This document shows positions 13,283 to 38,635 of a stretch of DNA of 64,000 nucleotides, in pieces (the stretch's first letter is position 1; the number at the start of each line of letters is the position of its first letter). The stretch is from SAR202 cluster bacterium bin22. GTDB lineage: Bacteria; Chloroflexota; Dehalococcoidia; Lucifugimonadales; UBA3495. The notes beneath the pieces were generated by a model, which worked only from the letters and a program-made list of their open reading frames with translations, searched no databases and had not been told where the DNA came from. Location of the stretch: contig MPMM01000018.1 of the NCBI GenBank assembly GCA_002238505.1, positions 1 to 64,000 on the forward strand, written 5' to 3'. The translations under genes were made by a program, and so were the position numbers.

Positions 13283-13459
13283 GGGTAGAAGTGTACGGAA
13301 CGGGTTCCGCTTTCGCAATTGTTGCCGTACCATTCATATGAGACGGTTCTGGCCAGGGTTTGGCGGTGGCCGGGGCGACGGGCTGGGCTGCCCGCTGGAC
13401 GTACCCCTTACGGACAGCGCTGCGCCTGCCGGTGTGAACGGATAACGGAGAGATGGAAC

Positions 13460-14842: not shown

Positions 14843-14845
14843 CCG

Positions 14846-15349
14846 ATGGACGTGGCTCTGGTGAAAAACGCCAACCGGATGATGACCACCGCCAGCTTGG
14901 TAGATAACGGGATTGAGGTATGCTTCGCCGACGGGCTTTGGGGCCTCATTCCCTACGGAGAAGTGCCCGAAGTCAGGACCCGGAAGGGAATCTCCGGCCT
15001 GGAGTTGCCCAACCCCTACGAGTTGGTCCTGCAAACCTCCGGGAGCGAGGGCGTTGAGATTCCCTGGGACTTCGCCCGGCACTACTGCGACGCAACCTAC
15101 CGGCCAACCATCGAGGCCATAGCGGCCCTCGGGAGGCAGACCATCGGCGAGCGGGTGCGACGTTACCGGGAGTCGGCAGGGTTGACCCAAGTGGCGTTGG
15201 CCCGGGCTGCGGACATCGGGAGGGCCACCCTAGTGAGGCTGGAGAACGGGGAGCAGTCCCCCCGGTTCAAGACCCTGAAAGCGGTCGCCGGCGCCTTGGG
15301 GATCGACTCCCCGGATTTGCTGGTCGAGCCGGAGTTCCTGCCCCGGTAG
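14846..15349 (+). CDS. DUF2442-like protein fused to an XRE-type HTH
   Basis: VDNGIEVCFADGLWGLIPYGEVPEV plus IGERVRRYRESAGLTQVALARAADIGRATLVRLENGEQSP. Confidence 0.75.
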   Translation: MDVALVKNANRMMTTASLVDNGIEVCFADGLWGLIPYGEVPEVRTRKGISGLELPNPYELVLQTSGSEGVEIPWDFARHYCDATYRPTIEAIAALGRQTIGERVRRYRESAGLTQVALARAADIGRATLVRLENGEQSPRFKTLKAVAGALGIDSPDLLVEPEFLPR

Positions 15350-15389
15350 CCCGCCAAGGATTGTAGACAAGGGAGATGGACATACGGGA

Positions 15390-18300: not shown

Positions 18301-18753
18301 ACCGGTGCCGGTGTGACCGCCGGGACCCTGCGCCCGGCGCTGGCGTCCATCGCCGTCCCGTCCACCGCCGGAGGGAGGAACATGAGCGGGAACGACTTCG
18401 CGTTGACCGTCGGCTGGGGGCATTTAGGCACGGGCGACGCCGTTATGCCTGGTCAAGGCCGCGCCGTTGGACGCGACTACACCGTCGTTGAGCGAAAGGC
18501 GCTAGGAGACACTGTTGCCGTTCTCGGCGATGCCACGGTCGATGTCCACCTTAACGACAACGCCCGCTGGAGCAACGTCCCTGCCGCCGTCTGGAGCTAC
18601 AAGCTGGGCGGCTACCAGGTGCTGAAGAAGTGGCTCTCCTACCGGGAAAGCAAGGTGCTGGCCCGCAGCCTGCTGCCGGAGGAGGTGCAGCACTTCACCG
18701 ACACGGTGCGTCGCGTTGCGGCGATTCTGGGAAGGGTCAATGAACCAACCTGA
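15390..18753 (+). pseudogene. Type ISP-like restriction-modification enzyme (N6-adenine MTase), decayed
   Basis: LLDPCCGTGAYLAETLKRIADNL and ILGNPPYNGFAGM; same-frame TAA near 17522; frameshifts near 15463 and 18310; C-terminal WSNVPAAVWSYKLGGYQVLKKWLSYRE. Confidence 0.8.
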
Positions 18754-18884
18754 AATGGACCAACTGCGAGACCACCGTCACAAGGTATAATGTGCTATGG
18801 AACCATCAATAGCGTCACACGTTGTTGGTGAGGCGCTCGTTACCAGCTTCGAAAATCTCAGAATCCTTCAATGATCGATTTCTC

Positions 18885-21800
18885 ATGTTGTTGCCTGGAG
18901 AGTCAAGAATGGAACAGAATTTTGAAGGCTTTTATAGGTCATTGCAAAGAGGTCCTGCCTTTTTGTTGCTCGGGCAAGCATATTTAGGAGCAGAGACCGG
19001 TGTAGATCCTTTTCTATCGGAACTGCTACGCAAATTTGGGGCTACCCGGGATATTTCCTCGCATTATAGAGCTATCCTGGGATCTGAAGCTGGGATTTCA
19101 CCTGAGGCTTCACTTGCATGGATGGATGAGTTATGCAGACGGATATCTACACCGGATTGGCTTAAGACCGTTGCCAGTTATCCTTGGAGCGGGGTATACG
19201 CATCGGCTATCGATTCTGTTTGGCCTACTGAGTTTCGGACGTCGTGGCGTGATGTATACCCACTGTTCGAAGAGAAGTACAAACCGGAAAACCCACGAAA
19301 CAGATTAGTGCTTCACCTGACATTCTTGTATGGTTGCGTCAACAGGTCCGATGAAGCAGAACGCCCTCCGTTGGTACCGTTTGAATTGACGAAGCGCCGA
19401 CAAGTAGCATTAGGATTGGCCCGTCGGCTATCAGAGGAGGTCACTCCTTTCGGGGCGCTCGTTGTCGACGGTTACGCGGGTAACGCCGACTGGTTGACTT
19501 TGGACGACTTTCTTCCAATCGTGGATGCCCTGAACACCGGACAAACGCATATATTCAGCGCAACCCATGACCTGTTGACCCACCCCGATGTCAAGTACCT
19601 CACCGAGAAGGGTAAGCTCACCCTGCATGAAGAAGGACTGGCTCAGGTCTTATCGCGTGGGCATGAGTTGGGATTCTTGCGGCTAGGTGTTGCTCCTGAT
19701 AGGGAAGAATCTGGTCGTAGGATTGCCATCGAAGATAAAGTTCTGGCAGTCCCCCGCGAAATCTGGAACCAAGTGTCAAGGTCTGCAACGGTGGTGGATG
19801 ACTCTATGTTAGTTGAGCCTCCACCGTTGTCCGACGATGCTCGTTATCGAGAATTTCGGCGCTTCCTATCGGAATCGGCGCTGAGGCCTCTTTGGTCTGA
19901 CTATGCCAGAGGCTTCGCGTACACCCGGCGCTACGGAAAAATACTGTTCAGTAGAACTGAGTTTAGGCTTAAACAGACCACGTTGAATGACCAGCCAACC
20001 ATACTTCACGGCCAGACTGGCACCGGTAAGACCGTGGCTCTTGCGGAACTTGCTTATCAAATCCGCAAGCTGTCGAAATATCCTGTCCTATTCATAGAGC
20101 GGAAGACGCAAAGACCTCTGGCCGCTGATATCGACCATTTTTGCCAGTGGGCAGAGGACAATGGCGCTCCTTCGTGTCTAGTCATCTGGGATGGAATGCT
20201 TGACCCGAGGGAGTACTCCGAGTTCTTGAGGATTCTTACCAGCAGAGGGAGGAAGGTCGTTTTAGTTGGCAGCAGTTATCGTCAGTCAAGCCAGTACGCC
20301 CGAGGGGACCGATTTGTGGAGGCGCCAGCTCGCCTTAGTCAAGAGGAAACCAACGAGTTTACTGGGTTTCTCAGCAGTTTTTTGCCTTCCATTGATCAAC
20401 GCTTGGAGTCTGCGCTCATAGCACATGATGAGTCGTATCTCGCCGCGCTGTATCGACTGTTGCCTCCGACCCGCTCTTTGATCAGATCTGGTGTAAGCAG
20501 AGAAATAGGTCACGCTGAACAGGCCGTTGCCCAGGTTGCGAGGAACGTCTCTAAAAACCATAGGAATATGGGTGCGCTGGCCTATGCGCTCGCGGAAGCT
20601 GGGATTATTGGCCAAGAATCTTCCTTGCTGGAAAATACTACTTTGGTTGACGGTGAGCATATCACCGGTTTCCAAGACCTCATTGGCCTAATAATGGTGC
20701 CCGGACGATTTGGACTGAATGTGCCAATCGAGTTACTCCTCAGGGCTTGGGGAAAAGGTGCGGTTTTAGATTTCCTCCAGCTGTTCGAGAACGTGGATGT
20801 GCTTAGATGGTACGAAGACTCCCAAGGGCGCGTCATGGTAGCCCCGCGTAATCCGTTAGAAGCGCAAATCGTTGTGCAAACACGCCTCGGCGGAGCTCGA
20901 ACAGAAGTGGCTTTCATTAAGCGGCTCTTAACCGAGGTCCATGATGACCGTGACTCGTCTTCACAAAATGGGGAAGTGGAGTTTGCAGTAAGCATCCTAC
21001 GGGCTGTTGGAGCCCAAGGGAGAAATAACGCATACTTCGCCCCACATTTTAGGGATCTCGCCGATTCGCTTCATGAACTGAGAACTGACCGTGGAATCAG
21101 AAATCCTCGAATAATGCTCCAAGAAGCCAATTTGCTTAGGGCAACGGCTTTCAGGTTGGGAAGAAATGGAGAACAAGAAGAAGAAAGAAAAATACTAGAG
21201 GGTGTAGAGGAGCTATTACGAAAAGCACTAGACCTGTTTGATGGGGACCGCAGAACAGCGTCGTTGAGAGCCGCTATCATGAACGAGTTAGCTACCACTT
21301 TGGGATCCCAGGCTAAAAACATGATTGCCTCCAACCAGCCTGCGGAGGCGGTCCGGTCTTTCCAGTCGGCACGCGAAGCGACTCATGAGGCTAGATTGTT
21401 AGACCCTTCGAATTACTATCCCATTGATGTCTTGTCATGGGTGACCCGAGACTTGCTGGCATCGGATATGTTGGATGAGCGGTCCCGAACCGAGGCAATC
21501 GCGGACTTACTAAATGTGTTTCAAAGCACTGAAATTCAGGATTTGGATGACAATCAGTTTGAACGGTTCAACTCACGCCGCCTAGAGTTTGGAGACCTGC
21601 TTGGAGACAAGCACCTGAGCGAGGAGGCATTTGCACAACTTATAGCCCAAGGTTCTTGCGCGGGGTTTTATCTACGGGCATCCCGTATGGCTGGAAACTT
21701 CCGTACCCGTAATAAGCTGACTGAAGAAGACGTCAAAAACATTCGGAGTGCCTTGAGCTATCTGGAGGAAAAGCGGCAAGAAGTCTCGGGCGACGCCCGG

Positions 21801-22322
21801 TGTCTGGAACTCTTCCTTGATCTTTCGTGGATGCTACACACTAGGACTCGATTGTTTGAGGGAGAACGTCAGACCCCCCCCTTAAATCAGGTCCATTGGC
21901 GCCAATTCTTGCAAACCATCCATGCCCTTGAAGCTACTGGGCAATCCCACAGAGGAGTAGCTCTAGAGTTCCTCCGCGGGCTTTGTCTTTTTCACTTGAA
22001 TGAAGTTGAAGAAGCGATCCAAGTTTTCCGGGAGGTCGAAATCGGGGCTGACCAGGTATACGGCCGGCGACGGGTAGTTCGAAGCTACTTAGCAAGTACG
22101 CAAGATGGTCAACCCAGAACGTTTCACGGAACAGTTCGCTGGATATCAGAGAACGAGCGCAGAGGGGAGGTGTATGTAGAGGAACTCCGCAGGCATTTGC
22201 TTTTTCTACCGCGGGAGTTCGGTAGGCATGGCATCAGCCACGGGGAACCGCTGGGCGATTTCCACATAGCTTTCAATTTCCTTGGGCCAATAGCAGACCC
22301 CCGCACTCACTACGTCACATGA
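18885..22322 (+). CDS. Large STAND-like NTPase with divergent SIR2-like N-terminus, helical-repeat region and cold-shock-like C-terminus
   Basis: ORF 18822..22322; P-loop LHGQTGTGKTVALAELAYQ; CLVIWDGML; N-terminal SYPWSGVYASAIDSVWP and VVDGYAGNADWLTLDDFLPI; C-terminal FHGTVRWISENERRGEVYVEELRRHLLFLPREF. Confidence 0.7.
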   Translation: MLLPGESRMEQNFEGFYRSLQRGPAFLLLGQAYLGAETGVDPFLSELLRKFGATRDISSHYRAILGSEAGISPEASLAWMDELCRRISTPDWLKTVASYPWSGVYASAIDSVWPTEFRTSWRDVYPLFEEKYKPENPRNRLVLHLTFLYGCVNRSDEAERPPLVPFELTKRRQVALGLARRLSEEVTPFGALVVDGYAGNADWLTLDDFLPIVDALNTGQTHIFSATHDLLTHPDVKYLTEKGKLTLHEEGLAQVLSRGHELGFLRLGVAPDREESGRRIAIEDKVLAVPREIWNQVSRSATVVDDSMLVEPPPLSDDARYREFRRFLSESALRPLWSDYARGFAYTRRYGKILFSRTEFRLKQTTLNDQPTILHGQTGTGKTVALAELAYQIRKLSKYPVLFIERKTQRPLAADIDHFCQWAEDNGAPSCLVIWDGMLDPREYSEFLRILTSRGRKVVLVGSSYRQSSQYARGDRFVEAPARLSQEETNEFTGFLSSFLPSIDQRLESALIAHDESYLAALYRLLPPTRSLIRSGVSREIGHAEQAVAQVARNVSKNHRNMGALAYALAEAGIIGQESSLLENTTLVDGEHITGFQDLIGLIMVPGRFGLNVPIELLLRAWGKGAVLDFLQLFENVDVLRWYEDSQGRVMVAPRNPLEAQIVVQTRLGGARTEVAFIKRLLTEVHDDRDSSSQNGEVEFAVSILRAVGAQGRNNAYFAPHFRDLADSLHELRTDRGIRNPRIMLQEANLLRATAFRLGRNGEQEEERKILEGVEELLRKALDLFDGDRRTASLRAAIMNELATTLGSQAKNMIASNQPAEAVRSFQSAREATHEARLLDPSNYYPIDVLSWVTRDLLASDMLDERSRTEAIADLLNVFQSTEIQDLDDNQFERFNSRRLEFGDLLGDKHLSEEAFAQLIAQGSCAGFYLRASRMAGNFRTRNKLTEEDVKNIRSALSYLEEKRQEVSGDARCLELFLDLSWMLHTRTRLFEGERQTPPLNQVHWRQFLQTIHALEATGQSHRGVALEFLRGLCLFHLNEVEEAIQVFREVEIGADQVYGRRRVVRSYLASTQDGQPRTFHGTVRWISENERRGEVYVEELRRHLLFLPREFGRHGISHGEPLGDFHIAFNFLGPIADPRTHYVT

Positions 22323-22334
22323 TCGGAGTGGCTC

Positions 22335-23249
22335 GTGACTACACCGAATCCACACGGACTAATGTACGAGATCATTTCTCGCAGGGATGAAATGAATCTG
22401 CTGGCTTCAAGGGCGATCGGTGTCGAAGATCTGATTTTCAAAGAGCTATCGCTTCCCATGCCGAAGTTTAATCCTGCGGAACTGGGGTTTATGTTAGCAG
22501 TCTCGTGGTTGTTCGTACTGTACCACGAAGCAGGAAAAGTGGGGGTTGCATTTCTGGCCGATCGATTCCCAGCGTATTTCCTCGATCCTCAAAACCGATT
22601 GGTGGCTCATTACCGAGACATTCAACATTTTCGTACTTATCACCAACATAACCTCGACTTAAGCAAGCCTCATGATATAGAAATTCGAGAAGTGTGTGAA
22701 AAATGGCTCACGGAACAATGCGGTACCCCAATTCCTGGCAGCGAGGATCAGTGGAATGTATGCGTAGTATCACTTCTCTCCGAGGCTGTTAGTTTCCTAG
22801 ATGCTTTGTGCCAGTGTATCCGTGGAATCGAGAATGACGAATCGCAGGAAATGATCGTTCGGGAATGGACTTCCCGGCTCAGGCGATATCATCCGCCCTA
22901 TGAGTTTGACACGTTGATCTCAAAAGTAGCGAGTGATATGGGCAGGGACACGATAGATCCAGTCCGCATGCGTGAAAGGTACTATGGCAAGTGGACCAAA
23001 GACTTGACTTTGTTGCAGGGTGAGTATGAATTCGACGTTGAGGCCCGAAGATTGATCGAGCATACGTTTCTAACCGAAACAGCCGCGATCATCCCTATAA
23101 CTGGGCAGGATGTGATGGAGGTATTCGGTATCCCTCCTGGCGCTCAAGTGGGTCACCTGCTAGAACGAGCGCATGCTCTACATCAGAGTGCTCCTTGCTC
23201 TCGGGATTCTCTATTACAATTGTTGATTCAGGAGGAGAAAAGGTCGTGA
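22335..23249 (+). CDS. Helical protein with HEPN-like Rx4H motif and C-terminus like tRNA nucleotidyltransferases
   Basis: RDIQHFRTYHQHNLDLS (R-x4-H); C-terminal IPITGQDVMEVFGIPPGAQVGHLLERAHAL; 12-nt gap from the STAND gene. Confidence 0.55.
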   Translation: MTTPNPHGLMYEIISRRDEMNLLASRAIGVEDLIFKELSLPMPKFNPAELGFMLAVSWLFVLYHEAGKVGVAFLADRFPAYFLDPQNRLVAHYRDIQHFRTYHQHNLDLSKPHDIEIREVCEKWLTEQCGTPIPGSEDQWNVCVVSLLSEAVSFLDALCQCIRGIENDESQEMIVREWTSRLRRYHPPYEFDTLISKVASDMGRDTIDPVRMRERYYGKWTKDLTLLQGEYEFDVEARRLIEHTFLTETAAIIPITGQDVMEVFGIPPGAQVGHLLERAHALHQSAPCSRDSLLQLLIQEEKRS

Positions 23250-25182: not shown

Positions 25183-25926
25183 ATGCCAGAATACGGTGTA
25201 ACTCTCCTGTCAGGCGGACTCGACTCCACGACCGTGGCCGCCTATGCGAAAGAACATGTTGATTATATCTCTGCAATTACCTTCCACTATGGGCAAACCC
25301 ATTCTAAGGAAGTCGACTGCGCGGCGCAGGTCGCCAGCATTATCGGCATTGAGCACGAATTGCTCGACATCTCATTTCTCTCGAAGATAGCTTGGTACTC
25401 CGCTTTGACCAATCCCGACCGATTTCCTGTGCCAGCGGACCGTTCCGTGGAGAAGATAGGATACGGGGTCCCGATTACCTATGTCCCCATGCGCAACACC
25501 ATATTTCTTTCATTGGCCACGGCCTCCCTCGAAAGCAGAGTATTGCACTCCATTGAAATGGAGGGGGTCGATCCTCACAGCGTTGTCGCGTCAGTCTACA
25601 TGGCTCCGAACGTCCTTGACTACAGCGGATACCCCGACTGCCGCCCCGAGTTCTACAGAGCGATGAAGAGAGCACTGGCTCTCGGCAGTAAGCTCTGGAC
25701 AGAACACGCGGTGTCAGTCAACATTGAGACACCGATTATCGACCTGTCAAAAGCGGAGATAGTAGCCCTCGGAATGAAACTCGGAGCTCCGCTGGGATAC
25801 ACATGGAGTTGTTATGAAGGCAGGGAAACTCCTTGCGGGGCGTGCGACAGCTGTATTCTGCGCGCCAAAGGGTTCGCGGAAGCCGGAGTGCCTGATCCTT
25901 TGCTGGAACGCCTCGGGAGGGATTGA
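25183..25926 (+). CDS. queC: 7-cyano-7-deazaguanine synthase (QueC)
   Basis: TLLSGGLDSTTVAAYAKE; FHYGQTHSKEVDCA; TPIIDLSKAEIVALG; CYEGRETPCGACDSCILRAKGF. Confidence 0.92.
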   Translation: MPEYGVTLLSGGLDSTTVAAYAKEHVDYISAITFHYGQTHSKEVDCAAQVASIIGIEHELLDISFLSKIAWYSALTNPDRFPVPADRSVEKIGYGVPITYVPMRNTIFLSLATASLESRVLHSIEMEGVDPHSVVASVYMAPNVLDYSGYPDCRPEFYRAMKRALALGSKLWTEHAVSVNIETPIIDLSKAEIVALGMKLGAPLGYTWSCYEGRETPCGACDSCILRAKGFAEAGVPDPLLERLGRD

Positions 25927-26248
25927 TTCTCATTGGAACTTCTGCTAACTATCCCAACGCCGAACCGTAACCGTGGCCGGAGCCTATGGTGTTTCCTTCC
26001 AGTGGCTCGGCGATAGGCCGCAAAACCTACGCCTGCATCGTATGATCACCCGACACCACCATGCTTGACCCGAGAAGCAGGCTTGGTAGCCTCTGAGCTT
26101 GTTACGGTCCCGTGACCTACCATAGGGGAAGAGACGAACATTCTTGTGGTCATCCCAGCTTGCCGTAGGCGTAAGTAATCCATATCATCGGAGTAGACAG
26201 TCCTGACAAGGCTCTAGCTACCTCGATGGGCTAGGACGCAATTGCCGA

Positions 26249-28603
26249 ATGATTCCAATTGACCGATTTCAAGCTGCACTGCAAACGGCTATGGGTGGTC
26301 GACTGTTGGACCAACAACAATTCGCCGTGGTATCCCAAACTCCTGGCAATCCGCTTATAGTGGTGGCTGGGCCAGGTACCGGAAAGACCACCGCAATTGT
26401 TGCCCGGGCGTTGAAGCTGGCTTTCGTCGACGGCTGGGACCCGAACAGCATGATGTTAACTACTTTCACCAAGAAAGCTGCGGCGGAAATGCGGTCTAGG
26501 ATACTTGGTTGGGGAATCGGTGTTTCAGAGGCGCTAGGTAGCGGCAATTCCGATTTAGAGCGAAGTTTTCTGGAGAGTCTGGACATCAACAGATTCCGTA
26601 CTGGGACATTGGACAGCCTCGCAGAGCAAGTCCTATCCGAATATAGACCCGCGAACACGAGCCCGCCCGTGGTCCTCGACGAGTTCATAGCCAACGGAGT
26701 ATTGTTGAGGTCGGGTCTATTCGAGAACAACTTATGGCAAAATGCTGATTTGCTGACGTTCTCCTCCTGGCACTCTGGTAACCCAACTCCCTCGGTGCGG
26801 GACCTTTTGCGGCTCTGTAGGTCATATGCTGACCGTGCCGTTCATGACCTCCTTGACCTCCCTCAATTCGCTGCCGTCAATGGCCCCCACCAAGCTATGG
26901 CGACCGTAATTGAACAATACCAAGCAGGTCTGAGTAACTTGGGTCCCAGCGTCGTAGACTTTGCACTGCTGGAGTACCTATTCCTCGATCAGCTACGGTC
27001 TGGAGCACTTGACGGATTTTGCAGCGAATTGCAGGCTATATTCGTGGACGAGTATCAAGATACCAATGCGTTGCAAGAAGCAATATACATGGAGATAGCG
27101 AGGAAAACGGCTCACTCGATTACGATTGTCGGAGATGATGACCAATCACTGTACAGATTCCGGGGAGGCACAGTTGAGCTATTCAGTGGAGTGCAGCATA
27201 GGGTCCAGTCGGGCCTGAGCGGTAGCGTTCCAACAGTGCTATATCTCAGCAGCAATTACCGGTCGAGTCGTGAGTTAGTAACTTTTGTCAGCGATTTTGT
27301 AGACCTTGATCCTCAGTACCAGCCTTCTCGAATTCCAAATAAGCCCCGCCTTCAGGGACCACAATTTGACTTGGGCCTACCTGTTCTGGGACTCTTTAGA
27401 CCGAATATTGACGACTTGGCCTACGACTTGGCCGAAATGATGGATTACCTCTTCAACCAAAGAGCCGTCAGTCTCACGACAGATGTTGGGAACATAAACC
27501 TGACGGTTCCCAACGAAGGGATGCCTGGTGACTGCGCCTTCCTCGGTTTTTCGGTTCGGGAGCAAACATCTTGGAACCCGTATGGAAGTGGAGGCCAGCC
27601 CAGACTGCCATTATTGTTGAGGCAGAATCTGTCGTTATTGGGTCAGCCGATCAGTGTGTTTAACCCACGTGGCCAGCCATTACACCAAGTGATCGAAGTG
27701 CGAAGGTTATGCGGGTTGATGCTGGAATGCATAGACCCTGGTGCTGTGGTCCAAAATTCCGTGTTGAATCTCGGTCCCCAGGTTGACGAGACCTTGAACC
27801 AGTGGCGAGGGGCGGCACGGAGGTTCATTTCTTCAAACCCTTCTCCTACGATTCCCAGTTCTTTGATTGACTTCGTAGCATCCTGGGGCTCAAAGACCCC
27901 TCAGATAGGAAACAATTGGCCCGACAGTATTCCTCTCTTGGACCTTTGTTACCAAATTTCCACTTGGCTCCCTTCGTTACACGAGGAACCTGAGAAGCAG
28001 ATATTCCTGGAAGTCATCGCTAGAGCAATCACCAAGTCCGCTACGCTCAATCGGTTTGGATCTAGGGTGGTGAACGAACCGAATCACCTAGAACGTCCTA
28101 GTGTGTTAGAGGCTATACGCAACATTTTTGCCCCCCTTGCGATGGGAGATATATCTATTGACGAGGAACTTCTAGAGGAATTTCCACGTGACGCAGTCAA
28201 CGTCTTGACTATTCACCAAGCCAAGGGGTTAGAGTTTCCGATGGTCATCGTTGATGTCGCTGCCCACTACAGAACCAACCATCCGTCGCATAGGAATATG
28301 CGATTTCCTGACCGACAGGAAGAAGTCCACATAGTTGAAGACTACACCATACCGCACAGCGAACTTCGGTCCGGTCAATTCAGACTTTGGCGTGATCGAG
28401 CCTTCGATGACTTGGTACGGAGATACTTCGTGGCATTTAGCCGGCCTCAGACTCTTTTGGTTCTAGTTGGCCTCAATGCCGCCCGTCCAGAAAGAACAAT
28501 CAGAAATGTCGCACTGGGTTTCGAAAGGAGCGGCACTTCACACTGGGTGGGTAACGGAAGACCCTACCAAGAAATCCAGGATATAGGGCCCTTTATTCCA
28601 TAG
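26249..28603 (+). CDS. UvrD/Rep-type SF1 helicase
   Basis: VVAGPGTGKTTAIVARALKL; FVDEYQDTNALQE; VGDDDQSLYRFRGG; IHQAKGLEFPMVIV. Confidence 0.9.
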   Translation: MIPIDRFQAALQTAMGGRLLDQQQFAVVSQTPGNPLIVVAGPGTGKTTAIVARALKLAFVDGWDPNSMMLTTFTKKAAAEMRSRILGWGIGVSEALGSGNSDLERSFLESLDINRFRTGTLDSLAEQVLSEYRPANTSPPVVLDEFIANGVLLRSGLFENNLWQNADLLTFSSWHSGNPTPSVRDLLRLCRSYADRAVHDLLDLPQFAAVNGPHQAMATVIEQYQAGLSNLGPSVVDFALLEYLFLDQLRSGALDGFCSELQAIFVDEYQDTNALQEAIYMEIARKTAHSITIVGDDDQSLYRFRGGTVELFSGVQHRVQSGLSGSVPTVLYLSSNYRSSRELVTFVSDFVDLDPQYQPSRIPNKPRLQGPQFDLGLPVLGLFRPNIDDLAYDLAEMMDYLFNQRAVSLTTDVGNINLTVPNEGMPGDCAFLGFSVREQTSWNPYGSGGQPRLPLLLRQNLSLLGQPISVFNPRGQPLHQVIEVRRLCGLMLECIDPGAVVQNSVLNLGPQVDETLNQWRGAARRFISSNPSPTIPSSLIDFVASWGSKTPQIGNNWPDSIPLLDLCYQISTWLPSLHEEPEKQIFLEVIARAITKSATLNRFGSRVVNEPNHLERPSVLEAIRNIFAPLAMGDISIDEELLEEFPRDAVNVLTIHQAKGLEFPMVIVDVAAHYRTNHPSHRNMRFPDRQEEVHIVEDYTIPHSELRSGQFRLWRDRAFDDLVRRYFVAFSRPQTLLVLVGLNAARPERTIRNVALGFERSGTSHWVGNGRPYQEIQDIGPFIP

Positions 28604-28632
28604 ACAGCACACACAACTGAGGAGCAATTACC

Positions 28633-29775
28633 ATGACTCTATTGCCGGTGAGAAACCCGATATACATGGTGCCAAACTACAGTGTGACGGGAGATATTCT
28701 CTCCTTCAGCCGATGTGGTCTCCAATACCGATACCTCAATGGTAGTTCTCTGCCTCCATCTCGGCCAGTCCAGATGTGGTTCGGAGAATTCATCCATGGT
28801 GTGTTGGAACTGGCGACCAGGTACTTCCAAGAAGGCCATTTCGGGTCTTTGCCATGGGACAGTGCCCAGATTGACTCCCAAATATGCGCCCCTGTTGTCG
28901 CTAGATTGGCCACCGAGGGAAAAACGCCTCGAAGTCGAGCAGCAGAAGAAAATGCCCGGAATCGGGCGCTAGTGGCCATCAACCAGTTGGGACCAGACCT
29001 GTTCCCTCTGGTTGAAGCCGCGGAAGTATCGGTAAGTGGCACGAGGCGAATGCCCCCAAACACCCAGTACCGAGCGAGTTACTTCGAGATTACTGGCCGG
29101 ATCGACCTAGTAACGAGTTTTAGATTGGATGACTTTAAACCCGAAGAAAACCCAATAGTGGACGCTATCCGTGCCATGGTCCCCGAAGAATCCGCCAATG
29201 ACCCATTCGAAGTCTTGGTTGACTACAAGGGGACGCGCCGACCTTCGACATCCTCGGATGAGTGGCAATTGTACGAGCGCCAGCTACAAACCTATGCTTG
29301 GTTGAGGCAACGGCAGCCCAATAGCCTCCCGGTTGTTGCTGGATTGGTCATTTTTGTCAACGAACTCCTGCCCACCACCTCCGACATGACGAAGCTAGGG
29401 GTGGACATTAACAAGGGTGAAACCGACGTCATTCCCGAGCCCAATAGCTTGGACCAACAAATCGTCTTGGGAACCCGTCATGGCGACTCGCCGTTTGGCC
29501 TTTCGTGGGGCTACAGATTGGCAAGAGCTCTGAGGGTCGTTCCCGTGGATGACGCAAATCAGAAAGATGCTTTGGACAGGTTCGACGGCATAGTTGAGCA
29601 GATCGAATCAAGTGTTGACCAAGAGCTTTCGTCTGGGTCGATCCAACAGAGTTGGACTCCCCGTCCGGTGGATGAAACTTGCGTGGCCTGTGACTTCCAA
29701 ACGGTTTGTCCAATGTCCCCTTACCTGGGACCCGCTCTGGCACCCTTGGGTAGGAGGTCTCCTGACGATTTTTAG
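28633..29775 (+). CDS. PD-(D/E)XK (RecB/Cas4-like) nuclease with cysteine cluster
   Basis: SFSRCGLQYRYLNG; ITGRIDLV...VLVDYKGTRR; YERQLQTYAWL; CVACDFQTVCP. Confidence 0.8.
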   Translation: MTLLPVRNPIYMVPNYSVTGDILSFSRCGLQYRYLNGSSLPPSRPVQMWFGEFIHGVLELATRYFQEGHFGSLPWDSAQIDSQICAPVVARLATEGKTPRSRAAEENARNRALVAINQLGPDLFPLVEAAEVSVSGTRRMPPNTQYRASYFEITGRIDLVTSFRLDDFKPEENPIVDAIRAMVPEESANDPFEVLVDYKGTRRPSTSSDEWQLYERQLQTYAWLRQRQPNSLPVVAGLVIFVNELLPTTSDMTKLGVDINKGETDVIPEPNSLDQQIVLGTRHGDSPFGLSWGYRLARALRVVPVDDANQKDALDRFDGIVEQIESSVDQELSSGSIQQSWTPRPVDETCVACDFQTVCPMSPYLGPALAPLGRRSPDDF

Positions 29776-29843
29776 CTTGAAGACAGGTAGGTATGGCCAA
29801 CTTCGACGTATAACCACGGGCTGAGGAGCGCCATACGCGGACT

Positions 29844-31553
29844 TCAATATAGGCTGTCATGCAACATTAGGGTGTTGTGGGCGCCACGCCGCTTGTTCCG
29901 GTTTGCACCACGGAATATCAGCATGTGTATCCCTAAACTCGTACAGAATTTGCAAACGCACTTCTTCCAAGGACGTTCCTCAAGGGTTCGGCGGTATTTT
30001 GTCTCCATAGACTTGGTCTCGCTAGACCTGGCAAGGTGGCTATCGTAGTTGAGGACAGCATCAAGAACCTCGTTGATACCAACTTCGTCCCTGTCGTATT
30101 GGCAAAGAAAGTTCAAGACCTCCAGTTCTTCTTTCTCCAATTGCTCGATATCGGCCTCCATTTCATTTAGGCGGTTCCGCGTGCGGCCATCCTTGGTCAT
30201 GGGCACTCGGATGGCTGCGTACCAATTTCCGTCGGCGCCCAGATAATTTTGATCTGATCTAAGCCACGCCTTTCGGAAGTACGTAGCACTGTCGAAACTG
30301 TCAACTTTGAGCTCCCGGAAGAAGTCCTGCAAGCCGGGCCGAAAGATCCCAAAGAGATGAATCCACGGTCTGCGAGTTCGGGCATCGGCTGCTTTAGCCA
30401 CGGCGGCTACTATACTTTTGACCTCCGCGTCGCCTTTCGGGACAAGACCCCCTATCGCCAAGTGGCGGTACCCCATCTCGTAATAATGGTGGACTGACTG
30501 CGCATACTGGTCGGGGCTCAGAGCTTGAATCGTCCCAACGGGGTTGAATTGAACTTTCCGCCGTCTAGCGGATTCAATGAAAAGCTCAGCGTTGCGTCGA
30601 GTTAGGTCTACCCTCTCTAGTCTTTCGGCGATGCTTAACTCGATAGCTTTTCCTTCCCGGCTTATTTTCTGTGCAGGAATGTGGTCGACGGAAGCTCCAA
30701 AATCAAAGCCGTAAGATTCATAGAGTGCTACTGCCTGGTCGACGGAGATAGCCGGGATATCCTCATTGAGGTAGCTGAAGGCCCCACAGTCTCCGAACAG
30801 GTACTGAGAATCAGTCAGACCGTAATGGCTTCGAAGCGGTTTGGGTGATAGGGAACTGATTTCAGTGCCTTCCAGTCTGCGCAGTGGCCCCTTCTGCGAA
30901 CCTTGTTGAGCTAGGCTGACCAAAATTCCGTCGGACATCTGCTTGGGTTGCATGAGAACCGAACAATGTTTGTCGTTTCGCTCTTCACGTCTCGGAGCGG
31001 AAAAGGAATCGGACTCAAAATCAAAATCTGGGTCTAACAAGTCATCCCAATCTGGAAGAAAATATGTGAACCTGCCAGTACCTCCCTCTATATCAACTCT
31101 TAGTCGGCGGGGCGACTGTGAAGCCGAAAGAAAACTCTTGATCTTACTTAGTTTCTCTCCAATCCCTCCCTGGAAAACTTCATGCTTTATCCCGAGCCGC
31201 TCTAGGGCCGGTTTCACAGCAGGCAGGTAGTCCTTCCCCAAAGATACGTAAGCGGAATCGTGAGAAGCAGCCCATTTATAGAGGACCTCGGCGCACTCCG
31301 TTTCCTTGGCTCTAGCAGTTGCCACGTCCATTCGTTGGTCGTAATTCTCAATACCTTTGAGAATTCCGAACAACCCATGCTTCGCAGACAAGACGCCGAC
31401 AGATACATCCTGAGGCCAGTGATAATCTCGGAAGTGTTTTCTGAGGATTTGATAAGCAGGACCGTTATACCTGAACAGGGCTGGAAGCAAGCCGTCAGAA
31501 ACCTGCTTGCGGCCTGAGCAGGATAGGATCAAGAGTTTCTTGCTCAATGACAC
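29844..31553 (-). CDS. dpdA: DpdA/TgtA5-like DNA 7-deazaguanine transglycosylase with DUF6884-like N-terminus
   Basis: KKLLILSCSGRKQVSDG..PALFRYNGPAYQILRKHFRD; FGDCGAFSYLNEDIPAIS; ASVDHI; YRHLAIGGLVPKGDAEV; C-terminal CVCKFCTSLGIHMLIFRGANRNKRRGAHN. GTG start near 31553; ORF opens at 31610. Confidence 0.8.
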   Translation of the reverse strand: MSLSKKLLILSCSGRKQVSDGLLPALFRYNGPAYQILRKHFRDYHWPQDVSVGVLSAKHGLFGILKGIENYDQRMDVATARAKETECAEVLYKWAASHDSAYVSLGKDYLPAVKPALERLGIKHEVFQGGIGEKLSKIKSFLSASQSPRRLRVDIEGGTGRFTYFLPDWDDLLDPDFDFESDSFSAPRREERNDKHCSVLMQPKQMSDGILVSLAQQGSQKGPLRRLEGTEISSLSPKPLRSHYGLTDSQYLFGDCGAFSYLNEDIPAISVDQAVALYESYGFDFGASVDHIPAQKISREGKAIELSIAERLERVDLTRRNAELFIESARRRKVQFNPVGTIQALSPDQYAQSVHHYYEMGYRHLAIGGLVPKGDAEVKSIVAAVAKAADARTRRPWIHLFGIFRPGLQDFFRELKVDSFDSATYFRKAWLRSDQNYLGADGNWYAAIRVPMTKDGRTRNRLNEMEADIEQLEKEELEVLNFLCQYDRDEVGINEVLDAVLNYDSHLARSSETKSMETKYRRTLEERPWKKCVCKFCTSLGIHMLIFRGANRNKRRGAHNTLMLHDSLY

Positions 31554-31761: not shown

Positions 31762-34302
31762 TCAGGCTTTGTAAGTGCCTCCCAGCGTTGCCAGCGCCTC
31801 GGGAAACTCGGCTTCGTGGAAAACGAGGCGGAATGTACCCTTGGCCGGCCCGTCCTTGATGGTCATTGTTCCACAGTTGAAGGCGTTTTGGAGCGTCTCA
31901 AGCACTCGCTGTTTGTAGTCGGTATCCGGGTTGCCGCGCAGGTGCTCACCTTTGGTTTCGAAGACCAACACATGAGGTTTGCCCTTGGTTTCACCGCCCA
32001 TAGCCACGAAATCAGGCCAGATTCGTTCCTGTTTCCAGCCCCGGAGATAGTAGTCTCCACGCTGTCGGACTGCCACCCGGTGCCACCATTTCAGCGCCTT
32101 CTGTTCATCTAGGTAGCGGGCGAAGTTACGTTCCAGAGTTGAATCGAACTGCTGTGCATATACAGGTTCAAACAGACTGAGTTGTACCTGTCTCCCGTCG
32201 TTCCCCGCCAGGAGCGCCGCATCGCTGGCTATGGGTATTTCGTAGCTTTCGACCATGCGGAAATTCGGTTGGCGCCCCTCCAGGTCAAAGCGTATCTGGC
32301 CGTCGCGCAACTTGTCGCGGAAGATTTTTTCTGCCTGAAGTAGCAACTGATTCGACACATGGTCTCTTAGCGCGAATGCCAGGTAGGAACGGCGGTCATA
32401 GATTTCGTCGTCTGTGTCGCCGTCGTCTCGAAGTTTCTCCACAAATTGCTGTGAGATCCGAGCCGCTTGCCACGGATTCGGAACCACATCTGACAACCGG
32501 CGGGCAAACCAGTTTAACTGAACATCCTTGGCAATGTTCAGTTCTGTCTCAGGATGAAAAACGGGAAGCGCATTACCGACGTCAACGCTTGCGGATTGCC
32601 GGACAGCCCTGTCCGGGAGGCTGCTCTTTGGGTCGGGAGGCTCAATCGTGTTCCAGTCAATTTCCGGTAGTATATGGGCCTGGTAATCCAACTCGCCCCA
32701 CCCTTCACCACGCTGATGTAGAACCAGAGGAAGGAAGATATCCTTGCCCTCAAACCCTTCCCGCCGCTGTAGGGTGATGCGCCGGAAGTCAGTCGAGTCA
32801 CTGGTCACTGCGTCCCCCAGGCCAGTCAAGCCCTCTTCTTCCAAACCTTGTTTGACCTGCGCCACCGCGTCGCCAACGCTTGTGTTCCAGCAGTAGACGT
32901 AGCACTGGTCCAAGGACTCCCGTCCGGTACGCCGGGCGTGAGGCTGACGCATCACTCGGCCCACCAACTGAGTGATGGCTCGCTGGGCGCGGGTGTTGTC
33001 CAGCATCACCAACAAATAGGCAAAGGGGCAATCCCAACCCTCCATAAGGGCGGCCCTGGTGATTACCCATCGTACTGGAGAAAACTCCGACAACAGGTCT
33101 TCACGGCGTAATTCGTCCAGCTCAGAGGATTTCACGGCAATGGAGTCTTCGGACACCCCCAGGTTCTGGGTCAGATACTCCCTCACGTCCTCCGAGTGGA
33201 CACGCTCCCCATCCCTCTGGTCCCTGCCCGTGCGCTCTACCCGCACAACGGCTATTGGGCGAATGTAACGGCCTGCGCTCATCTGCAACGAATTCGCTTC
33301 CGTATCAAGGCGCTCCAGTTCGTCGTGGGCCTGGGCTAAGGTGAAATGCCAGTCGGCGTTGGTGAAGGACGTCACCTGAACCGGGAGTTTAATCATCTCC
33401 TCGTTTTTCAGTTCCACTCCGGTAATATCAACCAGCAGGTTGCTAATCCCCTGGTTTGGCGTAGCGGAAAGTTCAATCACCAGGCTGGGATCCAAGCGGC
33501 TGACCGACCGCGCAAACTCTTCGTTGGCCTCCAAGTTGCGAGCGCCATAAGCCTTGTGCGCCTCATCCAGTATCACCACCGGGCGCAGCATCTTGAAGAC
33601 GTTGAAAAGACTGTGCTTCACCGGGCCGTCGTCGGTAATCCGCTCCAAATCAGGATAGTCATTGAGCAGCCTGGCGTCGCCGAGCAAGTCGTCGCTGTCC
33701 GGGAAGAGCGTGGGATAACGTCCCGAGTCACGGAACATCCGCAGAAAATCGCGGCCCCGCTGCCGATTGGCGGCCGGCAACATCAGCAGCATGACGCAAA
33801 GGTAATTTTCTATGTCCGCCTTAGTGAACAATTCTTCTTTTTCGAGCAGCTTGACCCTTCCCGCACTGGCGATTTCCAGCATTTGCCTGTAGGGGTGCTC
33901 CCGGCTCCGCAATGCGGCTTTGGTCTGTTCGTAAATGGCCCGAGTTGGCATGACCCACAGCGTCAGGCCGGTTTGCCGCCGGAGCCGCTGCAACGCAGCG
34001 GCGGCGAGAAGGGTCTTGCCGCCCCCCGTAGGCACTTTGAAGCAAATATGGGGGACGGGCCGGTTGGCATCATCGGTGCGGCTGACGTACTCACCGGCGG
34101 AATCTGCGACACGTCCAGCATCCTTCAACTGCTGCCATGCAATCTTGGGATAGTTGTAAAGGTCTTCGGAAATCGTGATGGCAGGACCTGCTTGCTTGAG
34201 AGCGTTGATGGCGGTTTGGGACTGCAATCGTGCTGAAGTGAGCGCATCCAGCCAAGCAGTAAAAGCTTCGAGCGAATTGGTTTGGTAGTCTTTCAACTCC
34301 AT
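31762..34302 (-). CDS. res: Type III R-M Res subunit (DEAD helicase plus nuclease)
   Basis: CFKVPTGGGKTLLAAAALQ; ILDEAHKAYG; LSATPNQG; C-terminal VFETKGEHLRGNPDTDYKQRVLETL. Confidence 0.9.
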   Translation of the reverse strand: MELKDYQTNSLEAFTAWLDALTSARLQSQTAINALKQAGPAITISEDLYNYPKIAWQQLKDAGRVADSAGEYVSRTDDANRPVPHICFKVPTGGGKTLLAAAALQRLRRQTGLTLWVMPTRAIYEQTKAALRSREHPYRQMLEIASAGRVKLLEKEELFTKADIENYLCVMLLMLPAANRQRGRDFLRMFRDSGRYPTLFPDSDDLLGDARLLNDYPDLERITDDGPVKHSLFNVFKMLRPVVILDEAHKAYGARNLEANEEFARSVSRLDPSLVIELSATPNQGISNLLVDITGVELKNEEMIKLPVQVTSFTNADWHFTLAQAHDELERLDTEANSLQMSAGRYIRPIAVVRVERTGRDQRDGERVHSEDVREYLTQNLGVSEDSIAVKSSELDELRREDLLSEFSPVRWVITRAALMEGWDCPFAYLLVMLDNTRAQRAITQLVGRVMRQPHARRTGRESLDQCYVYCWNTSVGDAVAQVKQGLEEEGLTGLGDAVTSDSTDFRRITLQRREGFEGKDIFLPLVLHQRGEGWGELDYQAHILPEIDWNTIEPPDPKSSLPDRAVRQSASVDVGNALPVFHPETELNIAKDVQLNWFARRLSDVVPNPWQAARISQQFVEKLRDDGDTDDEIYDRRSYLAFALRDHVSNQLLLQAEKIFRDKLRDGQIRFDLEGRQPNFRMVESYEIPIASDAALLAGNDGRQVQLSLFEPVYAQQFDSTLERNFARYLDEQKALKWWHRVAVRQRGDYYLRGWKQERIWPDFVAMGGETKGKPHVLVFETKGEHLRGNPDTDYKQRVLETLQNAFNCGTMTIKDGPAKGTFRLVFHEAEFPEALATLGGTYKA

Positions 34303-34312
34303 ACCAAACCCC

Positions 34313-35848
34313 CTATTGTCCTGCCTTGTGAATCTCGTAAGGCAACTGGGAGAATGTGACTCCCATAGATGTCAACTCCCGCTGCCCGATGTACTTGCCC
34401 GGCCCGAAGACGACGGCTTTCCTGCCTTCCTTCTGGCTAAGTGCGCTGATGCGAATCGCTCGCTCCTCATTCAACATCCCGCCATTGTTTTTGAGATAAT
34501 CCAAGTCAGGTTCGTACAACAGGTGGTAGTTGGTCGTGTCGCTGCTGTAAAACAGACCATCGTCGTTCTGTGGAGAAATTGTCGAGGCGCCGACAGAAAG
34601 CCCGGCCGACGTATGGAGCAAGTAAGCCGCCAGTGCTGAATATTCCGGCAGTGAGTCGCCGGTTAACATTCCCTCCACGTCAATCGGATCGCCCAGCGTG
34701 CAGTAGGTGAAGGAGCCACCGAAACCTTCTTGTCTCGATGCATCCCTAGCGCCGGGAATACCGTTGATAACCCGGCGCACCCGCTCGGCGGTAATGGTGT
34801 CGGCGTAGTCCTCACACTCCACTAGAATGAACTTGCGATTGCCTCCATCCTCCTGATTCAAAGCAAGGACGGCGTGGGCAGTTGTGCCAGAGCCTGCGAA
34901 GGAATCTAGGACGATGGCATCCGAGTCATCAAGCATAGTTAAGATCCGCTGAATAAGAGCTACGTTCTTTTCTCCATTAGGAAAGTTAAAGCGCGTATCG
35001 TATTCCTGAATGTCCGTCCAGTTAGTATCCAGCATTGTGCTGGTACTGGCATCAAGCAAATACTGTGGTGCCCCAGTACGTGGATTGGGGCGCAGTTTGC
35101 CATCAGCGACAAGTTCTTCTGCCCTCTCCTGAGAATACATCCAATGCCTTCCAGTTGGGGGAGTAGTTCCGAAGAGTTCGTACTCCATTGACGGACGAAT
35201 TCCGGGTGCATCAAATGCGTGCCAGCGTGCGGCTTTTTCATGAAATGTTGTCGGTGGGATGATCAACCCATCCGTGGATTTGGAATAAAACAGAACAAAG
35301 TTATACCCTTCGTTTAGCGCCCTTATATGTTCACGCTCTCTAATGTTTTTCTTTACACGAGCAACTGCAATAATATTACGGAAATTGCTTTCTCCAAAAA
35401 TCTCATCCATAAGCATCCGCAAATGGTGTTGCTCGTTGTCGTCAATGGATACAAAAACCACGCCATCATCGGCCAGCAATTCCTTTAAGAGATGGAGCCG
35501 CGGCCACATCATACAAAGCCACTTGTCATGCCGCTCGAGGTCTTCTCCGTCAACCGGGCTTTGCTGGTTGAACCATTCCTTGAACAGCGGGCCGTTCACA
35601 TTGTCGTTATAGACCCAACCCTCGTTGCCGGTGTTGTAGGGCGGGTCAATGTAGATGCACTTGACTTTGCCGGCATAGCGGGGTAGTAGCGCCTTCAGGG
35701 CGTGCAAATTGTCGCCGTGGATGATGAGGTTGTCATCAGCATCAGCTAGGTTCAGCGACTTTTCCGGGTCGGCAACGAGCGGCCGGTAGGGAACGGTCAG
35801 GTGGTGGGCGTAGATGTGCTGCTTGCCCTTGAAGTCCAACGTCGGCAT
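34313..35848 (-). CDS. mod: Type III R-M Mod DNA methyltransferase
   Basis: CIYIDPPYNTGNEGWVYNDNVNGP; LDSFAGSGTTAHAVLALNQEDGGNRKFILVECEDYADTI. Confidence 0.93.
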   Translation of the reverse strand: MPTLDFKGKQHIYAHHLTVPYRPLVADPEKSLNLADADDNLIIHGDNLHALKALLPRYAGKVKCIYIDPPYNTGNEGWVYNDNVNGPLFKEWFNQQSPVDGEDLERHDKWLCMMWPRLHLLKELLADDGVVFVSIDDNEQHHLRMLMDEIFGESNFRNIIAVARVKKNIREREHIRALNEGYNFVLFYSKSTDGLIIPPTTFHEKAARWHAFDAPGIRPSMEYELFGTTPPTGRHWMYSQERAEELVADGKLRPNPRTGAPQYLLDASTSTMLDTNWTDIQEYDTRFNFPNGEKNVALIQRILTMLDDSDAIVLDSFAGSGTTAHAVLALNQEDGGNRKFILVECEDYADTITAERVRRVINGIPGARDASRQEGFGGSFTYCTLGDPIDVEGMLTGDSLPEYSALAAYLLHTSAGLSVGASTISPQNDDGLFYSSDTTNYHLLYEPDLDYLKNNGGMLNEERAIRISALSQKEGRKAVVFGPGKYIGQRELTSMGVTFSQLPYEIHKAGQ

Positions 35849-36705: not shown

Positions 36706-38635
36706 CTAGAAATCTGGCCGAAAACCCCGGCTGACTGGGCAGTGGGTTATAATTCGGGCGAACTGAGTTAGCGGAGCGAGACGATGCTGGGAGAGCGTTC
36801 GGAGCAGAGGGGTCTGTGGGAAGCGGACCGGTTGTACCTTGACCACGTGGGGCGGGACACCTTCTACGGTCTGCTGGCCTCGCTGCGGGGCCGGTTGTTC
36901 CGGGACGCGGATTTCGCCGAGTTCTATTGTGCCGACAACGGGCGGGACAGCGTGCCGCCCAGCCTGCTGGCCACGGCCCTGCTGTTGCAGACCCACGACA
37001 AGGTGAGCGACGCCGAGGCCAAGGCCCGAGCGGACTTCGACATCCGGTGGAAGGTGGCCCTGGGGATAGAGGTAGAGGACAGGCCCTTCGCCAAGAGCAC
37101 GCTGCAGGTGTTCCGCGCCCAGCTGATCCTGCACGAAAAGGTGCGGGAGGTATTCGAGTCCAGCCTTCGGCTGGCCCGGGAGTCGGGCTACCTGAAAAGA
37201 CGGAGCATGAAGGTGGCGCTGGACACGACCAACATCCTGGGCCGGGGCGCGGTGAAGGACACCTACAATCTGTTGGCCGACGGGATCGTCAAGTTGATGC
37301 GGACGCTGGCAGCCGTGGAGCAGACCAAAGTCAAAGAATGGGCCCAGGCCCAGGGATACCAGCGGCACCTGGCCTCCAGCATCAAGGGCGAGGCGGCCAT
37401 AGACTGGAGCAACAGAGGGGCGCGTCAGGCGCTGCTGGCTGGGATTGTGCGAGATGCGGACCGGCTGCTGGAATTGTCGCGGCAGGCCCAGGGAGAGTTG
37501 GGGGAGGACAGCGCTGAGCGGCAGCAAATCGTGGCGGCGGCGGAACTGCTGGGGCAGTTGCTGCTCCAGGACATTGAGCGCCAGAGCCCAGATGGCGATG
37601 GAGAGGGCGACGGAGAGGGCGACGGCGATGACGGAGTGAGTCTCAGGGACGGGGTGAGTCGGGACCGGATGATGTCGGTGCACGACCCACAGATGCGCCA
37701 CGGGCACAAGAGCAGCAGCCGGCGCTTCGACGGGCACAAGGCGGCCATCATCGTGGACACCGATACCCAGTTGATCACCGCGGTGGATGTATTGCCCGGC
37801 AACGCTCCGGACAACCTGGGGGCGCTGGAACTGGTGGAGGAGAGCGAGACCAACGCCGGTTTGCCGGTGGCAGAAGCCGTGGGCGATGCCGCCTATGGCG
37901 ACGGAGCTACCAGGCAGACCTTCGCCGACGCGGGACGGCGGTTGGTGGCCCGAGTGCCAGGTCGGCCCAACCGGAAGCACTTTCCCAAGGATGACTTTGT
38001 CATTGACCTGGCGGCGGACAGTTGCTCCTGTCCGGCGGGACAGGTCACCCACACCATGGTGCCGGCGGGACGGCGTACGGATGCCGCGGGGCGGGTCCAC
38101 CGCTTGCGGGCCTTCCAGTTCGACGGGGCGGTATGTCGGACATGTCCACTGCGCCCTCAATGCATCGCAGCTAAAGGCAGGAAGGGACGACGGGTGCTGA
38201 TACATCCTCAGGAAGCCCTGTTGCAGCAGGCCCGGGCTTTGCAACAGAGCGCCGGATATGACGAATATCGGGCGCGCCGAGTGGTGGTGGAACACCGGTT
38301 GGCCCGGCTGGTCCACCTGGGCATCCGCCAGGCCCGCTATTTTGGCAGAGTCAAGACGAAATTCCAGCTGTACCTGGCGGCCACGGTGGCCAACCTGACC
38401 CTGGTGGCGGGGGAAATCGGTCTGTCGGACAGTGTCGGCGGCGGCGTAGAGACCCACCGCGCCGTCCCCAGTGATGTCAATGATGTCCAGGCTGTTTCCC
38501 ACGGTGTTGCCGCCCATGCTGCGGCCATTTTTGGCGCGGTCCGGCTCGGACAGCTGTGGTCCCAGATTCTGTTTGCCTCGGCTCTACTGCCGAAAGCCCC
38601 CTCCCCATCCAGGGCTTTTCGGCCCGGTTTCTAGT
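36706..38635 (+). mobile_element. IS1182-family-like insertion sequence
   Basis: Near-terminal inverted repeats actagaaatctggccgaaaaccccgg (left) and actagaaaccgggccgaaaagccctgg (right, reverse complement) flank the transposase ORF. Confidence 0.8.
36784..38634 (+). CDS. IS1182-family transposase
   Basis: PPSLLATALLLQTHDKVSDAEAKARADFDIRWKVALGIEVEDRPFAKSTLQVFRAQL...DTTNILGRGAVKDTYNLLADGI. Confidence 0.88.
   Translation: MLGERSEQRGLWEADRLYLDHVGRDTFYGLLASLRGRLFRDADFAEFYCADNGRDSVPPSLLATALLLQTHDKVSDAEAKARADFDIRWKVALGIEVEDRPFAKSTLQVFRAQLILHEKVREVFESSLRLARESGYLKRRSMKVALDTTNILGRGAVKDTYNLLADGIVKLMRTLAAVEQTKVKEWAQAQGYQRHLASSIKGEAAIDWSNRGARQALLAGIVRDADRLLELSRQAQGELGEDSAERQQIVAAAELLGQLLLQDIERQSPDGDGEGDGEGDGDDGVSLRDGVSRDRMMSVHDPQMRHGHKSSSRRFDGHKAAIIVDTDTQLITAVDVLPGNAPDNLGALELVEESETNAGLPVAEAVGDAAYGDGATRQTFADAGRRLVARVPGRPNRKHFPKDDFVIDLAADSCSCPAGQVTHTMVPAGRRTDAAGRVHRLRAFQFDGAVCRTCPLRPQCIAAKGRKGRRVLIHPQEALLQQARALQQSAGYDEYRARRVVVEHRLARLVHLGIRQARYFGRVKTKFQLYLAATVANLTLVAGEIGLSDSVGGGVETHRAVPSDVNDVQAVSHGVAAHAAAIFGAVRLGQLWSQILFASALLPKAPSPSRAFRPGF

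Follow-up and report, generated by a model that had tools for sequence, protein, structure and literature searches.

A 64,000-nucleotide stretch of contig MPMM01000018.1 from SAR202 cluster bacterium bin22 (the window; host genome 97% complete as assembled) carries a dpdA gene that converges on genes for a UvrD-type helicase and a PD-(D/E)XK nuclease. These three genes probably form a compact Dpd-type modification-restriction module, in which an AddAB-like split effector is paired with a DpdA that draws on preQ0 from its host. The trio is probably a stripped-down system for marking self DNA and destroying nonself DNA that is so far undescribed in the literature covered here; the open-access literature searched held no description of a dpdA-UvrD-PDDEXK module, most subscription papers lying outside that scope. 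An earlier reading of the sequence alone had singled out these genes together with a neighboring queC, and open reading frames and family matches bear out the positions and strands that it gave, including the 68 bp between the convergent stops of the nuclease gene and dpdA. The four genes are as follows.

25183-25926, + strand: queC, complete and functional by sequence, best seen as an orphaned queuosine-operon gene and not as a conserved module member
26249-28603, + strand: UvrD/AddA-like SF1A helicase of 784 amino acids that itself has no nuclease domain (PF00580)
28633-29775, + strand: PD-(D/E)XK nuclease of 380 amino acids, AddB/Cas4-like, with a four-cysteine (predicted Fe-S) site (PDDEXK_1)
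29844-31553, - strand: compact dpdA, encoding a DUF6884/DpdC-like N-terminal domain and a transglycosylase core (NF041059)

The longest open reading frame of dpdA starts at a GTG at 31610; relatives all start near 31553, where a GTG is preceded by AGAGG.

Recurrence of the trio

A scan of 84,980 species genomes for relatives of the window DpdA yielded 20 related loci, and in 18 of them homologs of both UvrD and the PDDEXK nuclease sit beside dpdA on the same strand, mostly abutting or overlapping. With this recurrence at 18 of 20 independent loci, the neighborhood is not a product of chance. The 18 loci span nine phyla: Latescibacterota, Bacillota, Nitrospirota, Chloroflexota, Actinomycetota, Planctomycetota, Pseudomonadota, Thermodesulfobacteriota, and Acidobacteriota. 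Gene order is dpdA-UvrD-PDDEXK in 17 loci and UvrD-PDDEXK-dpdA in L015, the trio of L011 lies on a complete chromosome, and the window is the only case in which dpdA and the effector genes are convergent. The pair is missing from two loci, L008, where genes for a recombinase and integrase-like proteins follow downstream, and L020, a short contig with a more distant DpdA (35%). Since all loci were collected via dpdA, these counts show that the pair accompanies this DpdA and not the converse. The recurrence for which the sequence-only reading proposed a search holds for three of its four genes; the set that includes queC recurs in L004 alone.

The trio is also present on a 143-kb IMG/VR contig (L040), and in a genome of the same order as the host (L057, G136:C117:50000-69900, positions 5241-19572) a canonical dpdC-dpdA-dpdB-dpdE-dpdF-dpdG island is immediately preceded, on its upstream side, by a UvrD-PDDEXK pair, which makes this locus a hybrid of compact and canonical systems. 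On a cyanobacterial plasmid with an annotated dpdA (L027), a nuclease 40% identical to that of the window is found about 10 kb away. Of 400 genomes from the host's phylum, Chloroflexota, five had a match to the DpdA profile (E up to 1e-30) and four a match to the nuclease profile (E up to 1e-12); the two co-occur in the window genome and in G515, on the same contig and within about 9 kb in each, and G466 has a nuclease-UvrD pair (L053) with no dpdA on its 10-kb contig. DpdA was found in 3 of 197 relatives of the host, a rarity expected of a mobile defense gene, and the match in the same-family genome G044 is L006, on a Dehalococcoidia chromosome. A search for close relatives gave a single partial match in phage records, and the dpdA genes found on plasmids were all distant or of the canonical type (≤38% identity, over a part of the protein).

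A DpdA-family transglycosylase core

Family and structural comparisons identify the product of 29844-31553 as a DpdA-family DNA-guanine transglycosylase and not a tRNA Tgt. Its full-length core scores 345.3 bits against the DpdA equivalog NF041059 (cut-off, 200) and matches the PADLOC DpdA profile at E = 1.6e-97; it falls under the cut-off of the tRNA TGT family PF01702 (24.8 versus 26.3 bits) and of the ArcTGT model TIGR00432 (28.7 versus 350 bits). Among solved structures only 7ui4, titled "Crystal structure of the DNA preQ0 insertase DpdA," gives a significant match (phmmer, 1.1e-63), and the window protein is about 31% identical to it across the whole core. An AlphaFold2 model (pLDDT 84.5) matches 7ui4 in Foldseek at E = 2e-29, with a TM score of 0.83 to the target; matches to tRNA TGTs reach about 1e-8, and an archaeal TGT likewise lies far below 7ui4. 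In a maximum-likelihood tree that has weak basal forks and includes the host's own Tgt and others, with ArcTGT not among the sequences, the window protein falls among DpdAs and the tRNA Tgts stand apart on a long branch. The earlier DpdA/TgtA5-like assignment, made with a call for the hidden Markov model search now run, is upheld by these results, and placement within a tRNA Tgt or ArcTGT clade is not. As a member of this family, the enzyme would have DNA as its substrate.

The protein is laid out as an N-terminal domain (residues ~1-145) and a transglycosylase core (~160-569). Core residues D255 (GDCGAF), D290 (S-x-D-H), G368-G369, and D421 (SFDSA) are invariant in 20 homologs, as is the CxCxxC...H site (C532/C534/C537/H559). 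By analogy with TGT, we take D255 and D421 to be the catalytic Asp pair, D290 the substrate Asp, and the three cysteines and the histidine a zinc site.

An AddAB-like pair that is exchanged as a cassette

The UvrD gene product matches PF00580 (1.7e-41), with Pfam matches to helicase domains only; the best solved relative of the helicase family profile is AddA (3u44_A, 4.8e-50), and Walker A, DEYQDTN, and GDDDQ motifs are conserved in the family. The nuclease matches PDDEXK_1 (5.6e-13), and its AlphaFold2 model (pLDDT 85) finds AddB (4cej_B, 7.7e-7) and the Cas4-like ACE1 (9iab, 5.4e-5) in Foldseek. Residues H55, D158, D197-Y-K199, Q217, and Y221 and cysteines C28, C350, C353, and C359 are invariant in all 19 nuclease sequences, a pattern shared with AddB/Cas4-type Fe-S nucleases, the Fe-S site here being predicted. 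The AddAB-like helicase/nuclease pair proposed from sequence alone is supported by these matches to AddA and AddB, and with the pair beside dpdA in 18 of 20 loci it is the conserved partner of compact DpdA.

Helicase and nuclease identities across loci are tightly correlated (Spearman, 0.93), and the two proteins behave as one unit. The corresponding values for DpdA against the effectors are 0.04 to 0.05 overall and 0.23 to 0.25 inside the long effector class (Mantel p, 0.02 to 0.03); we do not claim strict coevolution of all three proteins, as DpdA-effector covariation is weak and overall there is none. Effectors come in two classes, a long UvrD with a 390-amino-acid nuclease or a short UvrD with a 300-amino-acid nuclease. 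Two Thiosymbion DpdAs are 91% identical, with helicases and nucleases at 28 to 29%; two planctomycetes share 72% in DpdA versus 27 to 30% in the effectors, and L004 and L005 share 73% versus 27 to 28%. Because similar DpdAs thus occur with dissimilar effectors, two classes of cassette have been swapped while the kind of DpdA stayed the same. Such swaps are in keeping with interchangeable effector cassettes that serve one mark, and they suggest that a single mark on DNA can license nucleases unrelated to one another. Nearly identical or close DpdAs are paired with different, unrelated classes of effector in L013 and L017, in L016 and L021, and in L004 and L005.

An N-terminal domain related to DpdC

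The DUF6884-like N terminus pointed out earlier matches DUF6884 weakly in the window protein (E = 1e-4, or 8.6e-6 when the domain is taken alone), but the N termini of all 20 homologs match DUF6884 (best, 9e-13), and 9 of the 20 match YaaA/DUF328. C12xxxK16, S56, and G63 of this domain are invariant across the 20 homologs. Pfam curators describe DUF6884 as a remote YaaA relative with CxxxK and LSAxxG motifs (PMC11701544). DpdC, which converts dPreQ0 to dADG in characterized islands, has been assigned to DUF328 (PMC12839542).

What the sequence-only reading missed is that this N terminus may be related to DpdC. The window has no separate dpdC gene, and the N-terminal domain shares both motifs and profile similarity with DpdC: CxxxK and SA-x-x-G are common to the domain and five DpdC candidates (extended to likely starts), and hhalign of the domain against a DpdC profile gives E = 3.6e-4. 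An Enterobacter gene upstream of dpdA, in the dpdC position, matches DUF6884 at 6e-5, and in the Dpd-like systems L027 and L054 the DpdC profile matches inside the long DpdA itself. Because of these shared motifs, the profile similarity, and the DUF6884/DUF328 matches, we infer that compact DpdA is a DpdC-DpdA fusion, into which a deazaguanine-processing step may have been built. The IMG/VR contig IMGVR_UViG_3300006094_000039 carries a free-standing DUF6884 gene followed by UvrD-PDDEXK (L042, 5162-9179) and also a second UvrD-PDDEXK pair, after which comes a DpdA that lacks the N-terminal domain (L043, 5689-10157); the parts fused in compact DpdA also occur separately.

queC and the source of preQ0

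The queC product is a clear QueC (PF06508, 2.9e-62; TIGR00364, 184.8 bits against a cut-off of 150.3) and the single QueC match in the host genome. It is 57 to 73% identical to queC of the same order, found mostly in queF-queD-queC-queE operons of genomes without the module, and QueC is found in none of four same-genus genomes. Since these operonic relatives mostly lack dpdA and the four congeners lack QueC, queC is best seen as an isolated queuosine gene, and its candidacy as a conserved module gene was rejected on genomic context. It stands beside dpdA in only 1 of the 20 related loci (L004, with yhhQ-queC beside the module); queD is beside the module in five (L005, L010, L012, L016, and L021, the last assigned by clustering).

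Neither queD nor queE had been recognized near the module, and searches of the host genome found no PTPS/QueD, and the best QueE candidate (28% over 110 residues, E = 0.0095) was not convincing. A search for decayed queD, queE, or queF near queC gave no match in the window that improved on E = 0.4, and the sequence upstream of queC has no Rfam match to a preQ1 riboswitch or other RNA element. YhhQ, a preQ0 importer, and QueF are encoded side by side on host contig C13. With these two present and QueD and QueE absent, the host looks like a preQ0 salvager, and its preQ0 probably comes via YhhQ. Among 19 genomes with compact dpdA, full QueC is found in 15 and YhhQ in two more, and this 17 of 19 is a consistency check only, QueC being common anyway. 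The earlier pairing of queC with dpdA as a modification arm is not supported, given the single shared locus, the operonic relatives, and a host without QueD and QueE; overall, the earlier observation is confirmed and its interpretation partly supported. The host's tRNA Tgt gene, on contig C4 (G000:C4:88423-89501), is read in two frames that overlap, owing either to a frameshift or to a mistake in the assembly.

Proposed mechanism and alternatives

In the mechanism that we favor, the DpdA core would put preQ0 in the place of guanine in host DNA, and the DpdC-like DUF6884 domain fused to it would probably turn dPreQ0 into dADG or act in some other way on the flipped base. Joined in one complex, the UvrD helicase and the AddB/Cas4-like nuclease would unwind and degrade DNA that lacks the mark; the base might stall translocation or prevent cutting, or the license might come from DpdA itself. 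PreQ0 would be supplied by the host, through YhhQ salvage in this genome and the queuosine pathway in most others, and queC would be a useful or relic neighbor that the module can do without. The gene identities, the intact catalytic motifs, the recurrence of the trio in nine phyla, and the tight covariation of helicase and nuclease are seen in the sequences; DNA as substrate, the final base, the restriction of unmodified DNA, and the manner of self-recognition are the steps that we infer. If this is true, it would be a Dpd effector that resembles AddAB. How the restriction arm of canonical Dpd discriminates the mark is unsettled in the literature covered here, and a three-gene version with a recognizable helicase-nuclease effector would make the question directly testable.

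Several results weigh against the module as proposed. The host lacks QueD and QueE. For the relation to DpdC, hhalign gives a probability of just 37% despite the small E-value, and YaaA is not in the best 50 structural matches of the whole DpdA model, a list crowded by transglycosylases. DpdB, the insertion-associated ATPase of characterized islands, was not found near any compact module; it has been reported as dispensable in some Dpd systems (PMC12839542). In the window, dpdA faces the effector genes and has a type III restriction-modification operon upstream in the same-strand order mod-res-dpdA, and dpdA and the effector genes may not be co-expressed there.

One alternative inverts the logic: DpdA would mark invading, damaged, or replicating DNA, and the helicase-nuclease would attack the modified DNA. 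Cas4/AddB-type nucleases frequently act on ends and single-stranded DNA, and from the sequences alone discrimination could run either way. DUF6884 proteins have also been proposed to bind damaged bases (PMC11701544). We nevertheless consider the inversion unlikely, since the base is a self mark in characterized Dpd islands (PMC12839542) and L008 keeps dpdA without effectors.

There is a slim chance that dpdA and UvrD-PDDEXK are separate defense genes that share an island, with dpdA belonging to the type III operon, as the convergent orientation, the separate transcription units, and the same-strand mod-res-dpdA order in the window would allow. Against this, dpdA forms one apparent operon with the pair in 18 of the 20 other loci, across nine phyla, and type III genes do not recur there, for which reason type III restriction-modification was rejected as the real partner of dpdA.

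Likewise improbable is that queC is integral to the module as a local preQ0 supply. The gene is intact and the only copy in the genome, L004 also has it next to dpdA, and queC-D-E are a frequent part of canonical dpd islands; its presence at 1 of 20 loci, the nearest queC genes in queuosine operons mostly without dpdA, and the absence of QueD and QueE, by which the genome as assembled does not make the CDG substrate, all argue otherwise.

That the transglycosylase acts on RNA or protein, as Cap10 of type IV CBASS attaches deazaguanine to protein, would draw on the repurposing of TGT-fold enzymes (PMC11996544) and on the nearby QueC, and is very improbable in view of the ~31% identity to the DNA enzyme 7ui4, the equivalog score well over cut-off, the DNA-acting partners, and a PADLOC scan of the neighboring proteins that found no CD-NTase.

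Beyond the compact module itself, these loci might represent a DpdB- and YprA-independent class of 7-deazaguanine defense, in which DpdC-DpdA writes the mark, interchangeable AddAB-like cassettes read it, and the base acts as a Chi-like stop/pass signal; we advance this as a speculative extension, which may well not hold.

Comparison with known systems

Described Dpd islands carry dpdB and dpdD-K (PMC11888242). A tblastn search with Enterobacter DpdB, the DGQHR ATPase, found no match in the window or in L002 to L021, the rest of the genome not being searched, and did match the control, L031; for dpdD-K there was no tblastn match in the window and one weak DpdE match, in L006 only. The earlier failure to recognize the canonical set in the window is therefore borne out for dpdB and dpdD-K. 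The compact module shares with canonical Dpd (Salmonella Montevideo type, dpdA-K) the DpdA core, the need for preQ0, a DUF6884/DUF328-type DpdC function that here appears to be fused to DpdA, and an island or mobile setting; it differs in lacking dpdB, dpdD-K, and the PLD nuclease DpdK, in its AddAB-like pair, and in having three genes versus about eleven.

BRIGADE systems, which are Dpd/ARMADA hybrids (PMC12458937), likewise combine 7-deazaguanine machinery with helicases and PLD or occasionally PD-(D/E)XK nucleases, but they usually have two YprA helicases and are reported only from halophilic archaea, whereas the module is bacterial, with a UvrD/AddA-type helicase and a putative DpdC-DpdA fusion. 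The only other helicases near the module are UvrD-type proteins and type III Res; canonical dpd helicases went unmatched, and no YprA profile was run. BRC, a BREX-related system (PMC12839542), also has a TGT-family defense modification enzyme without DpdB or DpdC, but its PglZ, DUF6079, STAND, DUF4007, HerA, and GNAT components are all absent from the conserved trio. With AddAB/RecBCD the module has in common a UvrD-family helicase and an AddB-like Fe-S PD-(D/E)XK nuclease; unlike in AddAB, the helicase has no nuclease domain, the nuclease has no helicase or Chi-scanning domain, and the pair is dpdA-linked and sporadic instead of housekeeping. Type IV CBASS (Cap9/Cap10) and qatABCD employ QueC-family proteins, and CBASS also TGT-family proteins, in defense, but the window QueC is of the queuosine type and lies outside the module, and other qat genes were not recognized. 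Among the neighboring proteins scanned, PADLOC matched no CD-NTase, Cap9, or Cap10; Cap9 matches QueC partially and weakly.

Defense-island setting and accessory genes

The window is a defense island, with type III restriction-modification genes, type IIG/ISP-like fragments on both sides, a STAND NTPase, more helicases, and an insertion sequence. Promoter and terminator scans were at or near chance level. The neighboring features are as follows.

15521-18316: remains of a type IIG/ISP-like restriction-methyltransferase (family scans)
18822-22322: STAND NTPase-like protein of 1166 amino acids (family scans)
31762-34302, - strand: type III Res subunit, on the dpdA strand and outside the conserved module (PADLOC REase_III, 1.5e-192)
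34313-35848, - strand: type III Mod methyltransferase, outside the conserved module (PADLOC MTase_III, 5.6e-151)
38556-39713: remains of a second type IIG/ISP-like protein, abutting the insertion sequence transposase at 36784-38634

The STAND NTPase gene is followed by one for a 304-amino-acid protein of no known family (18822-23249), and the two are possibly a separate defense operon.

Some related loci have further genes. In L002 and L003 (Latescibacterota, 11.5 to 15.4 kb), two genes lie between dpdA and UvrD, one for a HerA ATPase (DUF87) and one with no Pfam match whose product, at a guess, is NurA-like; in L002 a DDE transposase gene (16097-17236) interrupts the UvrD gene. A family of ~320 amino acids without a Pfam match stands beside the module at L011 8964-9917, L019 6761-7723, and L012 16858-17937 and is a possible optional component. 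In several long-DpdA systems, a short and very divergent second TGT-like protein, whose branch is distant from DpdA and tRNA Tgt alike, is encoded beside dpdA (L027 6159-7082, L034 7960-8883, L052 12568-13482, and L054 15390-16403).

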